Shown: positions 41,940-46,676 of the stretch, one piece after another
Numbering within the stretch: the first letter of the stretch is position 1
Layout: every line of letters starts with the position of its first letter
DNA from: Microbacterium salitolerans
GTDB lineage: Bacteria > Actinomycetota > Actinomycetes > Actinomycetales > Microbacteriaceae
Length of the DNA stretch: 64,000 bases
Assembly: GCF_019720895.1 (NCBI RefSeq)
Contig: NZ_JAHKSH010000005.1
Location: 62,001 to 126,000 of the forward strand
Reading direction: 5' to 3'
The notes under the pieces: model-generated
The model's input: the letters and a program-made list of their open reading frames with translations, nothing else
Told to the model about the DNA's origin: nothing
The model's database searches: none
Program-made: the position numbers and the translations under genes

Positions 41940-43091
41940 CTATGCGGTGATGACCTGCGCCGTGCCGGGAGCCGCGTCGGGACCCATCTCGTCGGCGAGG
42001 CGGTTCGCCTCCTGGATCAGCGTCTCGACGATGTCGGCCTCGGGCACCGTCTTGATGACCTCGCCCTTGACGAAGATCTGGCCCTTGCCGTTGCCGCTCG
42101 CGACGCCGAGGTCGGCGTCGCGCGCCTCGCCCGGCCCGTTGACGACGCAGCCCATGACCGCGACGCGCAGCGGCACCGTCATGTCCTTGAGGCCCTCGGT
42201 CACGTCGTCGGCGAGCGTGTAGACGTCGACCTGCGCGCGACCGCACGACGGGCACGACACGATCTCGAGCGTGCGCTCGCGCAGGTTGAGCGACTGCAGG
42301 ATCTGATGGCCGACCTTGACCTCCTCAGCCGGCGGAGCCGACAGCGAGACGCGGATCGTGTCGCCGATGCCCTCGCCGAGGAGGATGCCGAACGCCGTCG
42401 CCGATTTGATCGTGCCCTGGAACGCCGGGCCCGCCTCGGTCACGCCGAGGTGGAGCGGCCAGTCGCCGCGTTCGGCGAGCATGCGGTACGCCTGCACCAT
42501 CACGACGGGATCGTTGTGCTTGACGGAGATCTTGAAGTCGTGGAAGTCGTGCTCCTCGAAGAGCGACGCCTCCCAGACCGCCGACTCGACGAGCGCCTCG
42601 GGCGTCGCCTTGCCGTACTTCTCGAGCAGACGCCGGTCGAGGGATCCGGCGTTGACGCCGATGCGCAGGCTCACTCCCGCGTCCTGCGCCGCCTTCGCGA
42701 TCTCGCCGACCTTGTCGTCGAACCTGCGGATGTTGCCGGGGTTGACGCGCACAGCGCCGCAGCCGGCGTCGATCGCCTCGAAGACGTACTTCGGCTGGAA
42801 GTGGATGTCGGCGATGACGGGGATCTGGCTCTTCATCGCGATGATCTTGAGCGCCTCCGCGTCCTTGTCGGTCGGACACGCGACGCGCACGATCTCGCAG
42901 CCCGACGCCGTCAGCTCGGCGATCTGCTGCAGCGTGGCGTTGATGTCGTGCGTCTTCGTCGTGGTCATCGACTGCACGCTCACGGGGGCGTCGCCGCCGA
43001 CGGCGACTTTGCCCACGTCGATCTTCCGCGACTTGCGACGCGGGGCGAGGGTCACGGGAACGCGGGGCACACCGAGGTTCACTGCTGGCAC
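41940..43091 (-). CDS. ispG: 4-hydroxy-3-methylbut-2-enyl diphosphate synthase
   Basis: A 383-residue [4Fe-4S] enzyme, the penultimate MEP-pathway step. TIM-barrel parts include [30 protein letters not shown] and VRVNPGNI; the C-terminal cluster ligands are Cys in [13 protein letters not shown] and [17 protein letters not shown]. The GTG start at 43091 ([12 protein letters not shown]) is chosen because TAGGCT lies 7 nt upstream; much longer in-frame readings extend into the trp leader region. With dxr 8 kb away it makes the second MEP gene in the window. Convergent with the VOC gene. Confidence 0.95.
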
Positions 43092-43098
43092 GTCCCCC

Positions 43099-43104
43099 AG
43101 CCTA
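43099..43104 (-). promoter_or_regulatory. Leaderless -10 box for ispG
   Basis: TAGGCT on the minus strand, 7 nt before the GTG at 43091. Confidence 0.6.
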
Positions 43105-43131
43105 CGCCGCGACGCCCGATGCGACCCGCAG

Positions 43132-43161
43132 TTGCGGGGATCCACAGCCGGTGTGTAGCGT
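43132..43161 (+). promoter_or_regulatory. Promoter of the trp leader
   Basis: TTGCGG (43132-43137) and TAGCGT (43156-43161), 18 bp apart. The -10 box ends 7 nt before the leader-peptide GTG, so the RNA should begin at or within a base of that codon. Confidence 0.65.
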
Positions 43162-43168
43162 CTGGTTC

Positions 43169-43207
43169 GTGTTCGCGATTCAGACCTGGTGGTGGCTCGC
43201 TCTCTAG
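43169..43207 (+). CDS. trpL: trp operon leader peptide
   Basis: A 12-residue peptide, [12 protein letters not shown], with three consecutive Trp codons (TGG TGG TGG) and a TAG stop. GTG start 7 nt after a TAGCGT box, with no Shine-Dalgarno possible on a leaderless RNA. The Trp run near the end is the classical sensor of charged tRNA(Trp). An attenuator hairpin begins 26 nt after the stop, and the fused anthranilate synthase gene follows. Assignment rests on the Trp run, position and structures. Confidence 0.88.
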
Positions 43208-43259
43208 GCGGCCCCCTTCGCGAACCTTCGAAGAACGACCGTCGATCCCGGCGGTCGTT
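43207..43259 (+). promoter_or_regulatory. Transcription attenuator of the anthranilate synthase gene
   Basis: The terminator stem is AACGACCGTC (43234-43243) with GGCGGTCGTT (43250-43259): 10 pairs with one G-U, a 6-nt loop and TTT at the end. A second GGCGG directly after the leader Trp codons (43207-43211) can pair with CCGTC (43239-43243) instead, which would break the terminator when ribosomes stall on Trp codons. Confidence 0.7.
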
Positions 43260-43305
43260 TCGCGTATGCGGGGCCTCCGCCTGAACCACACGAAGTGAGT
43301 CCCAG

Positions 43306-45267
43306 ATGGCAGAGAACCCCGCCGCCCTCCTGTCCGCGCTCGCCGCCGACCCGCAGAGATCGTTCGCGCTCCTCGCGCGCGACGGCGCGTCCACCGTGGA
43401 GGTGCTGACAGGCGACGTCGTCGACGTCGATCTGCTCGCCGACATCCCCCTCGCGGATCCGTCCGGCGCGCCCCGTGAGGTGCTCGCGATGGTGCCGTTC
43501 GGACAGGTCCGCGAGCGCGGATTCGACGCGCGCCCCGACGACGACGCTCCCCTGCGCTGCCTGCTGGTCGACGCACACGACTCCTTCCCCGCGTCCGACG
43601 TCATCGACGCTCTCCCGCACGACGAGATCCCGCTCGCGGACGCGGGCTTCGACATCGCCGACGACGACTACGCCGAGACCGTGCGCACCGTGATCCGCGA
43701 CGAGATCGGACGCGGCGAGGGCGCGAACTTCGTCATCCGCCGCGACTACACGGCATCGGTCGAGGCCGACCCTCGCGTCGCCGCGCTCACGTGGTTCCGC
43801 GCACTGCTCGAGCACGAGCGCGGCGCGTACTGGACGTTCGCGATCGTCACGCCCGGACACATCGCCGTCGGCGCGAGTCCGGAGGCGCACGTGACCGCCG
43901 TCTCGGACGGATCCGCCGATGCCCGCACCGTGACCATGAATCCCATCTCCGGTACATTCCGCCACCCCGCCGGCGGGGCGACGGCCGAGACGCTCGGTGC
44001 CTTCCTCCGCGACGCGAAGGAGACCGAGGAGCTGTTCATGGTCGTCGACGAGGAGCTCAAGATGATGAGCGCCGTCTGCAGCGACGGCGGACGCATCACC
44101 GGCCCGCACCTCAAGGAGATGTCGCGCCTCACGCACACGGAGTACGTCCTGAGCGGAAACTCGAAGCTGGATCCCCGCGAGATCCTGCGCGAGACGATGT
44201 TCGCGCCGACCGTCACGGGCTCGCCCATGCAGAACGCGTGCGCCGTCATCCGCCGCCACGAGCACGCCCCGCGGGGCTACTACTCCGGCGTCGCCGCGCT
44301 GTTCACCCCGCGCGAGGGCGGGCACGACCTCGACGCGCCGATCCTCATCCGCACGGCGTACATCGAGAACGGCCGCCTGCGCGTCCCCGCCGGGGCCACC
44401 CTCGTTCGCCACAGCGACCCGTACGGCGAGGTCAGCGAGACGCACGGCAAGGCGGCGGGCGTCCTCGGCGCGATCGGGGCGATCCCGCGCGCCGTCACCA
44501 CCGTCGCGGGGACCGACGACGACGCCCCGCGAGCAGAGCGGGCGCAGCTGGCCGACGACCCCGAGATCGCCGAGCTGCTCTCCTCGCGCAACGCCCGACT
44601 CGCGTCGTTCTGGCTCGACGACCAGTCCCACGCCGCGGCGGCCCCGCCGCTCGCGGGGCGTCGCGCCGTCGTCGTCGATGCCGAGGACCGCTTCACGACG
44701 ATGCTCGCCCACCAGCTGCGGCGCCTCGGCATCGCCGTCGAGATCGTCCCCTGGAGCGCGGCCTCCGACGACGTCGTCGATGCGGCGGAGCTCATCGTGG
44801 CCGGTCCGGGGCCCGGCGACCCGCGCGACATCGAGAGCCCGCGGATCCGCCGGCTTCGCGAGATCGTCGCGCGCCGCGTCGCCGGGCGCGCTCCTCTGCT
44901 CGCGGTGTGCCTCAGCCATCAGGTCCTCGCGGATCGTCTCGGCATCGAGATCGCGCCGCTCGACAGTCCGCACCAGGGCCTGCAGCTCACGGTCGACCTG
45001 TTCGGAGAACCTGCCGCGATCGGGTTCTACAACACCTTCACCGCCCGCGTCCTGCCCGGCGTCACGCGCCTCACGCCGAGCGAGCACCGCTGCGGTCTCG
45101 TCGGCGAGGTCCAGATCGCGGCCACCGAGCGCGGCGACGTGCACGCGCTGCGCGGCGCCGGCTTCGCGAGCGTGCAGGGGCACCTCGAGTCGATTCTGTC
45201 GCGCGACGGGATCCGCACCCTCGAGCGCCTCGTGACCCACGCGCTGCGAGGTAGCGTGGAGGCGTGA
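43306..45267 (+). CDS. Fused anthranilate synthase (TrpE-TrpG type, PhzE-like)
   Basis: A 653-residue protein joining a chorismate-utilising domain (residues 1 to ~430) and a class I glutamine amidotransferase domain (from ~445). The first shows [38 protein letters not shown] and [12 protein letters not shown]; the second has catalytic Cys535 in AVCLSHQ and His-Glu in VQGHLES. Together they make anthranilate (or 2-amino-2-desoxyisochorismate) from chorismate and glutamine. Sequence is closer to PhzE-type fusions, but the Trp-rich leader and attenuator argue for tryptophan supply. A fused trpEG under a trp attenuator is known from Streptomyces. The ATG has only a weak Shine-Dalgarno. Confidence 0.88.
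45252..45257 (+). promoter_or_regulatory. Leaderless -10 box for the FAD oxidoreductase
   Basis: TAGCGT lies inside the 3' end of the anthranilate synthase gene, exactly 6 nt before the GTG at 45264. Confidence 0.6.
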
Positions 45268-46676
45268 CCAGTTTCGACGTCGACGCCGTGGTGGTGGGGT
45301 CGGGCCCGAATGGCCTCGTCGCCGCCGTCACGCTCGCCGAGGCGGGCTGGCGCGTCGTCGTCATCGAGGCGCAGGACACCCCCGGCGGCGGACTGCGCAC
45401 CGACGAGGTGACGCTGCCCGGATTCCGCCACGATCACTGCGCGTCGACGCATCCCATGGGGGTCGCGAGCCCGGCGTTCCGCGCACTCGGCCTCGAGCGC
45501 GAGGGCCTGCGGTTCGCGCAGTCGGACGTCGCCCTCGGGCACCCCATCGCTCCCGGATCATCCGGCCTCCTCCTGCGCGACGTCGACCGCACCGCGGCGG
45601 GGTTCGGCGCCGACGAGAAGCTCTGGCGCGCCGTCGTCGGCACCTTCGGGAAGCGCTGGGAGCCCCTGTCGCGCGGCATCATGAACCCGCTGCGCCCGAA
45701 CCTCGACGTGCTCGCACTGGGGGCGACGAGCGTGTGGCCCACCACCTGGATCCTCCGCGCCCTGCGCGACGAGCGCACCCGCGCGGTCGTCGCGGGTCTC
45801 GCGGCGCACTCCATCCTCGATCTGAAGCAGCCCGCCGCCGCCCTCGTCGGCGTCGCGCTCGGCGCCTTCGCGCACGGCGTCGGCTGGCCCGTCGCGGTCG
45901 GCGGATCCCAGTCGATCGCCGACGCGCTCATCGCACGACTGCGTGCGCTCGGAGGAGAGCTCGTGACGGGAGAGCGCGTCACGAGCATCGACCGCCTGCC
46001 GAGCGCACGCGCCGTGCTGCTCGACACGTCGCCGCGCGATGCGCTGAGGATCGCCGGCCACCGCATGGCGCCGCGCTATGCGCGCGCTCTCGCGAGCCTG
46101 CGCCACGGCCCCGGCGTCTACAAGGTCGACTGGGCCCTCGACGGGCCGGTGCCCTGGGCGGATCCGTCGATCGCCGACGCCGGCTTCCTGCACCTCGGCG
46201 GCACGGCCGGCGAGGTCGTCCGCGCCGAGCACGAGGTCGCGCGCGGCCGCGTTCCCGACGAGCCGTTCCTGCTCATGTCGCAGGCCTCCGCCGTGGATCC
46301 GTCTCGTGCGCCCGCGGGGAAGGCGGCCTTCGGCGGGTACTGCCACGTGCCGGCGGGCTTCGACGGCGACATCACCGACGCGATCGAGCGGCGCGTCGAG
46401 CACTTCGCGCCCGGCTTCCGCGAGCGGATCCTCGCGCGCCATGTGACGGATCCGGACGCGATGGAGGCCCACAACGCGAACCTCGTCGCGGGGAACATCG
46501 ACGGCGGATCCCCCGATCTGCGTCAGCTCCTCGCCCGGCCCACGCTCTCGCTGACCCCGTGGGCCACGGGAGACGCGCACGTCTTCTTCTGCTCCGCCTC
46601 GACGGTCCCCGGCCCCGGCGTGCACGGGATGTCCGGCCGCCTCGCGGCGCAGACCGCGCTCGCGCGACTGGGGTGA
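45264..46676 (+). CDS. NAD(P)/FAD-dependent oxidoreductase (phytoene desaturase-like)
   Basis: A 470-residue flavoprotein. The dinucleotide-binding motif is VVVGSGPNGLVAAVTLAEAGWRVVVIEAQDTPGGGLR (GxGxxG with the GG doublet and final Arg), as in the carotenoid/phytoene desaturase and CrtI-like superfamily. The C-terminal FCSASTVPGPGVHGMSGRLAAQTAL is the matching flavin-binding end. Substrate unknown; no carotenoid genes are adjacent. Its GTG overlaps the anthranilate synthase stop by 4 bp, so it could be translated from that mRNA or from its own leaderless promoter. Confidence 0.88.
   Translation: MTSFDVDAVVVGSGPNGLVAAVTLAEAGWRVVVIEAQDTPGGGLRTDEVTLPGFRHDHCASTHPMGVASPAFRALGLEREGLRFAQSDVALGHPIAPGSSGLLLRDVDRTAAGFGADEKLWRAVVGTFGKRWEPLSRGIMNPLRPNLDVLALGATSVWPTTWILRALRDERTRAVVAGLAAHSILDLKQPAAALVGVALGAFAHGVGWPVAVGGSQSIADALIARLRALGGELVTGERVTSIDRLPSARAVLLDTSPRDALRIAGHRMAPRYARALASLRHGPGVYKVDWALDGPVPWADPSIADAGFLHLGGTAGEVVRAEHEVARGRVPDEPFLLMSQASAVDPSRAPAGKAAFGGYCHVPAGFDGDITDAIERRVEHFAPGFRERILARHVTDPDAMEAHNANLVAGNIDGGSPDLRQLLARPTLSLTPWATGDAHVFFCSASTVPGPGVHGMSGRLAAQTALARLG

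Follow-up and report, generated by a model that had tools for sequence, protein, structure and literature searches.

A probable leaderless trp attenuator, with a candidate helix at the RNA 5' end, upstream of a fused anthranilate synthase-like gene in Microbacterium salitolerans

The region upstream of a fused anthranilate synthase-like gene of Microbacterium salitolerans probably carries a trp transcription attenuator of the classical, ribosome-mediated type, in which the RNA is leaderless. It was analysed within a window of 64,000 nucleotides (contig NZ_JAHKSH010000005.1, positions 62,001 to 126,000), the whole stretch of DNA to which our coordinates refer (Table 1). The geometry of promoter and start codon and its conservation, the leader peptide, and the complementarities with their covariation were computed here; from these we infer the transcript start, the termination and the response to Trp. 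The kind of element is already known: it is a Streptomyces-type leaderless trp attenuator, which our comparison extends to Microbacterium and further actinobacteria.

Table 1. Parts of the putative attenuator and the gene downstream of it (positions in the window).
Feature	Position	Strand	Remark
Proposed -35 element TTGCGG	43132..43137	+	literal match, 18 bp from TAGCGT; not conserved
-10 box TAGCGT	43156..43161	+	ends 7 nt before the leader GTG at 43169
Leader ORF, GTG start, 12-residue peptide	43169..43207	+	RNA 5' end predicted at or adjoining the first base
P0 helix, 5' arm GUUCGCGA	43171..43178	+	
Three Trp codons (sensor)	43187..43195	+	
Segment 1, Trp codons and next bases	43188..43201	+	partner of segment 2 when no ribosome is bound
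Segment 2, GGCGG	43207..43211	+	antiterminator first arm
Upper antiterminator helix	43216..43233	+	43216-43220 with 43229-43233, from folding
P0 helix, 3' arm UCGCGAAC	43218..43225	+	
Terminator hairpin	43235..43258	+	43235-43244 with 43249-43258; short U run behind
Segment 3, CCGUC (DNA CCGTC)	43239..43243	+	antiterminator second arm
Fused anthranilate synthase-like gene	43306..45267	+	Chorismate_bind and GATase, 653 aa

An initial annotation had placed a promoter just ahead of a short GTG-initiated peptide, and its reading of the letters was confirmed: TAGCGT, the start codon and three Trp codons stand as described. The gene ispG is divergent, on the opposite strand. The two GGCGG copies were also found, the second at 43250-43254 in the 3' arm of the terminator; however, the first does not lie directly behind the Trp codons, as had been stated, but shares its first G with the TAG stop codon. 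A promoter scan of 43000-43400 with an E. coli-type consensus returned no promoter, and a U-tract terminator scan of the same interval recognised none, the hairpin at 43235-43258 included. No Rfam family, trp leaders among them, reached the gathering cut-off anywhere in the window, and 43100-43320 gave only two matches, both below cut-off.

We compared 198 upstream regions, made up of the M. salitolerans locus, 80 named genome contigs (the best 80 of 550), 19 loci from a phylum search and 98 family or class stretches (80 of the class-search matches listed and 18 of 20 from the family search); a few genomes are represented twice. Tandem Trp codons within a short ORF were present in 163 of them (154 distinct sequences). 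All 163 carry a TANNNT box that lies 6-8 nt ahead of this ORF, the in-frame start having been chosen partly by that box, whereas such a box precedes only 6 of 2,259 other ATG or GTG codons in the set of leader-bearing regions. When the start was chosen independently of the box, as the nearest ATG or GTG separated from the Trp run by 4 codons or more, the box was still in place in 140 of the 154 distinct sequences. None of 17 other codons with a comparable -10 box opens a tandem-Trp ORF. The promoter that had been proposed therefore stands in its -10 part, TAGCGT belonging to a conserved box, but not in its -35 part: TTGCGG is present, yet the best match to TTGACA averaged 2.66/6 against 2.69/6 at control positions (65 representatives). 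Shine-Dalgarno duplex energies separated leaders from genes weakly (medians -3.8 for leaders, -5.9 for genes and -2.9 for random positions), and at the M. salitolerans locus leader and gene alike gave -5.5.

RNA-seq reports leaderless transcription of the S. lividans leader trpL1, MFAHSTRNWWWTAHPAAH, before trpE (PMC8079986, excerpt). Streptomyces-type leaders of our set, MFAHSTQNWWWTAHPAAH (L096 and L161), have a gap of 7 nt and differ from trpL1 by one residue. The -10 spacing found here, close to the 6-7 nt or so expected of a leaderless start, agrees with that of S. lividans leaderless promoters. Because the -10 geometry is conserved and trpL1, near-identical to the leaders of L096 and L161, is reported leaderless, a leaderless start of the M. 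salitolerans leader, with the RNA 5' end predicted from these comparisons, appears well supported, and the comparison thus favours the leaderless leader ORF of the initial annotation. Such a start looks like the rule for the actinobacterial trp attenuator family. The same attenuator could alternatively be transcribed from a promoter further upstream, giving the leader ORF a 5' UTR and possibly a start at the in-frame GTG at 43151, upstream of the -10 box. That codon and the poor -35 would suit such an arrangement, which the fixed site of the -10 box in 163 of 163 regions and the leaderless report for trpL1 render quite unlikely.

A tandem-Trp leader was absent from 35 of the 198 regions, two of which (L034 and L036) have almost no upstream sequence. 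Eight regions (L185, L189, L192, L194, L195, L199, L202 and L203) contain no Trp leader and have TANNNT 6-8 nt before a long frame resembling the fused gene, as if the fused gene had turned leaderless and the attenuator had been lost. In L147, about 175 bases before the start of the match, the -10 box is kept and SWRP stands in place of the tandem Trp residues, a natural variant of the sensor.

The relatives share four complementary segments: a CCGCC-type segment behind the Trp codons (1), GGCGG at the stop (2), ACCGCC (3) and GGCGGU (4). At the M. salitolerans locus the CCGUC of segment 3 introduces a G-U pair into both the antiterminator and the terminator helix, and 1:2 pairing is weaker than in most relatives. 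Kutzneria (L074) shows a compensated change, GACGG in segment 2 with CCGUC in segments 1 and 3. For statistical tests we reduced the 163 regions with a leader to 65 representatives. In five of these (L014, L018, L025, L052 and L111) the terminator was missed by the hairpin finder; they were trimmed by hand for the P0 test described below and are not among the 60 that entered the 1:2, 2:3, fold-state, earlier-cut and fifth-segment tests. When partners were swapped among the 60 representatives, none of 5,000 permutations was as good as the true 1:2 pairing and 15 of 5,000 were as good as the true 2:3 pairing, the stacking energies in these, the P0 and the fifth-segment tests being approximate values.

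The RNA up to the terminator loop was then folded with a ribosome on the first Trp codon, without a ribosome, or with a ribosome at the stop. At least 3 antiterminator pairs were expected in 58/60 stalled RNAs, 6/60 free RNAs and 0/60 with the ribosome at the stop; the corresponding values for the M. salitolerans locus were 5.8, 0.0 and 0.0 pairs. The result depends on the cut point. When the cut was placed a few bases further upstream, at least 3 pairs were expected in 44/60 stalled and 3/60 free RNAs (24% and 7% for shuffled leaders), and the stalled M. salitolerans RNA had 0.8. At equilibrium, the full-length stalled RNA formed mostly the terminator, with medians of 10.0 terminator and 0.01 antiterminator pairs (11.2 and 2.1 at the M. 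salitolerans locus). Folding order must therefore matter: the antiterminator would form first and hold. This is likewise the case in the trp attenuator of E. coli, where the antiterminator forms first and then holds.

The state-dependent folds produce the switch. The plain fold of the whole of 43169-43306, which had been suggested as a check, does not stand out from RNA of the same composition (z -1.76; 13 of 200 shuffles were equally stable). The mutually exclusive pairings of the two GGCGG copies with CCGTC, proposed as antiterminator and terminator, are supported by both folding and swap tests. The antiterminator itself extends beyond the 5 bp that these motifs provide, since the arms of the upper helix can pair as well. 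The original reading as a Trp attenuator, a short tandem-Trp ORF before a likely gene of the Trp pathway with alternative antiterminator and terminator, is supported by comparison and folding together.

The CCGCC that follows the terminator was tried as a fifth pairing segment and rejected. With segment 4, 2,113 of 5,000 permutations were as good and shuffles gave p<=0.05 in 8/60 sequences; with segment 2 the numbers were 93 of 5,000 and 5/60. Statistics on the U run were set aside because U's of the stem had wrongly been counted in.

The Trp codons could also act through Rho-dependent termination or translational control, with no intrinsic terminator involved. The weak U run and the negative terminator scan would agree with this, as would mycobacterial cysteine leaders, described as lacking clear terminators (PMC1262725, excerpt) and as cases of translation attenuation (PMC13236596, excerpt). 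However, the relatives have a GC-rich hairpin that shares segment 3, and in several of them TTTT or a longer run stands behind it; we therefore consider such control unlikely and retain transcription attenuation at a putative intrinsic terminator as the preferred reading.

A segment just behind segment 2 can pair with roughly the first 10 nt of the RNA; at the M. salitolerans locus GUUCGCGA faces UCGCGAAC. We call this putative helix P0. Its arms differ elsewhere and still match: GUACGCGA/UCGCGUAC in Jiangella (L062), GUACGCA/UGCGUAC in Rhodococcus (L073), GUGAUCGCGA/UCGCGAUCAC in Embleya (L069), GUUUGCAA/UUGCAAAC in L109 and UGCGUUCG/CGAACGCG in L123. Since a MAFFT alignment of 43 leaders misaligned the 5' arm, permutation tests were used instead of a covariance model or pair counts. 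An initial complementarity test with unthinned relatives and a loose duplex model gave little contrast. Among the 65 representatives, true partners averaged -11.9 kcal/mol against -8.9 for permuted ones, and none of 20,000 permutations was as good (z -8.1). The same held within Microbacteriaceae (0/5,000) and outside them (0/5,000), groups that were assigned by locus number; the signal was weaker in Microbacterium alone (16/5,000) and in other Microbacteriaceae (16/5,000). Kinship among the sequences is only partly controlled. Against their own shuffles, 28 of 65 sequences reached p<=0.05, and many single cases are therefore unremarkable. The near-palindromic arms at the M. salitolerans locus, together with a partial third copy, TTTCGCG, after the terminator, might suggest DNA sites for a regulator and not an RNA helix. 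We regard this as very improbable, because elsewhere the arms are non-palindromic and yet complementary, as in TGCGTTCG/CGAACGCG (L123) and GTACGCA/TGCGTAC (L073); pairing in RNA is the reading that we follow here.

In folds of the free RNA at least 4 P0 pairs were expected in 45 of 60 sequences (42 of 60 with a later cut), compared with 14% of shuffled leaders and 12% when nt 4-13 alone were shuffled; seven of the 60 (L029, L063, L065, L072, L078, L080 and L093) had fewer than 0.5. P0 nests outside 1:2 and is incompatible with 2:3 in a simple fold. Blocking nt 1-13 raised the number of free RNAs with at least 3 antiterminator pairs from 3/60 to 9/60, and when nt 4-13 were shuffled 25% of free RNAs reached 3 such pairs. 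P0 therefore adds to the off state, yet 1:2 alone does much of that. The first Trp codon follows after 5-8 codons in 151 of 163 leaders, and this short distance would fit a checkpoint at P0, because a ribosome waiting at the Trp codons would extend back to about the 5' end of the RNA. We give even chances to the proposal that P0 is a conserved, covarying helix of actinobacterial trp attenuators, which would make loading of a ribosome on the 5' end before nt ~57 a checkpoint. The helix had been missed in the initial annotation, and it would make prompt ribosome loading matter.

The attenuator may be pictured as follows. RNA polymerase would start at or beside the GTG at 43169, and a ribosome would load on the bare 5' end and translate the 12-residue leader. 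When Trp-tRNA is low, the ribosome would stall on the Trp codons and, with an assumed footprint, cover everything between the 5' end and about nt 31-37, keeping both P0 and 1:2 open; GGCGG could then pair with CCGUC, allowing read-through into the fused anthranilate synthase gene. With ample Trp, a ribosome at the stop would free the 5' end and cover segment 2, so that the terminator would form from segments 3 and 4. With no ribosome, P0 and 1:2 would close, so that both the start region and segment 2 are hidden; the terminator would again form, which makes off the predicted default. A ribosome still unloaded when nt ~57 emerges would meet a paired start region, with the antiterminator opposed and transcription halted, if P0 affects initiation as we suppose.

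The protein encoded at 43306-45267 combines Chorismate_bind and glutamine amidotransferase domains. Of 41 NCBIfam families, none of the 25 listed reached its cut-off, and the nearest solved structure was 3r74, which we take to be PhzE, the maker of a related product. Besides the fused gene product, the genome encodes two other Chorismate_bind proteins, one resembling a PabAB fusion and one an isochorismate synthase. The canonical TrpE model NF010086 found no match in the genome at E 1e-100, and among 150 family genomes canonical TrpE was absent from 8 of 20 with the fused gene versus 9 of 130 without it. On this protein-level comparison the genome most likely has no anthranilate synthase other than the fused one, in keeping with a Trp attenuator ahead of its gene, and in Microbacterium canonical TrpE seems to have given way to a PhzE-like fused enzyme. 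One IGPS was found in the genome and no match to PRAI/TrpF. The flanks examined at the other two Chorismate_bind loci contained no short tandem-Trp leader on the coding strand. A CrtO/phytoene desaturase-like FAD oxidoreductase gene, its product below NCBIfam cut-offs, lies at 45264-46676, its first 4 nt shared with the end of the fused gene; it may belong to the attenuated transcript. A relative of it was found at one of the 80 named loci (the best 80 of 550), at L003:4289-5698, in flanks of at most 2 kb.

Coupling on a leaderless leader had been singled out as the novelty of this locus; precedents in S. lividans trpL1, Sinorhizobium meliloti trpL (PMC7298713, excerpt) and C. glutamicum ilvL (PMC11857589, excerpt) remove that claim. 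The S. lividans trpL1-trpE system shares a WWW leader, reported as leaderless, and a terminator between leader and trpE, and the excerpt describes no P0-like helix (PMC8079986); its leader is longer (18 aa), and in the Streptomyces-type relatives examined here segment 2 lies inside the leader ORF. The trp attenuators of S. venezuelae and Corynebacterium likewise have tandem or triple Trp codons and an antiterminator and terminator that share complementary triples, and the excerpt of that work mentions no leaderless start and no helix at the 5' end (Seliverstov et al. 2005, PMC1262725). In S. meliloti the attenuator RNA starts with the leader ATG, before trpE(G); unlike our case this is an Alphaproteobacterium, and leader RNA and peptide also work in trans (PMC7298713, excerpt). 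At ilvBNC of C. glutamicum a single nucleotide separates the ilvL transcript start from the start codon of the leader, and the H1 hairpin, like the proposed P0, is said to block leaderless initiation and to act as an antiantiterminator; that system differs in responding to branched-chain amino acids and in that H1 is also credited with a transcription pause which lets the ribosome load (PMC11857589, excerpt). Mycobacterial cysteine leaders share a leaderless short ORF with regulatory codons, but concern cysteine and translation attenuation (Canestrari et al. 2020, PMC13236596, excerpt).

In the open-licence literature we found nothing on such an attenuator in Microbacterium and no description of a P0-like helix in trp leaders. 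A helix that hides the first bases of the RNA thus seems undescribed for trp attenuators. According to a 2016 paper, a computer model of attenuation failed to reproduce control of S. venezuelae trpE by Trp unless RNA triplexes were included (PMC4833913, excerpt), and a 5'-end helix may be another missing part worth trying in that model. The value of the present finding is comparative, P0 giving a sharp, testable prediction of how leaderless initiation and attenuation would interlock.
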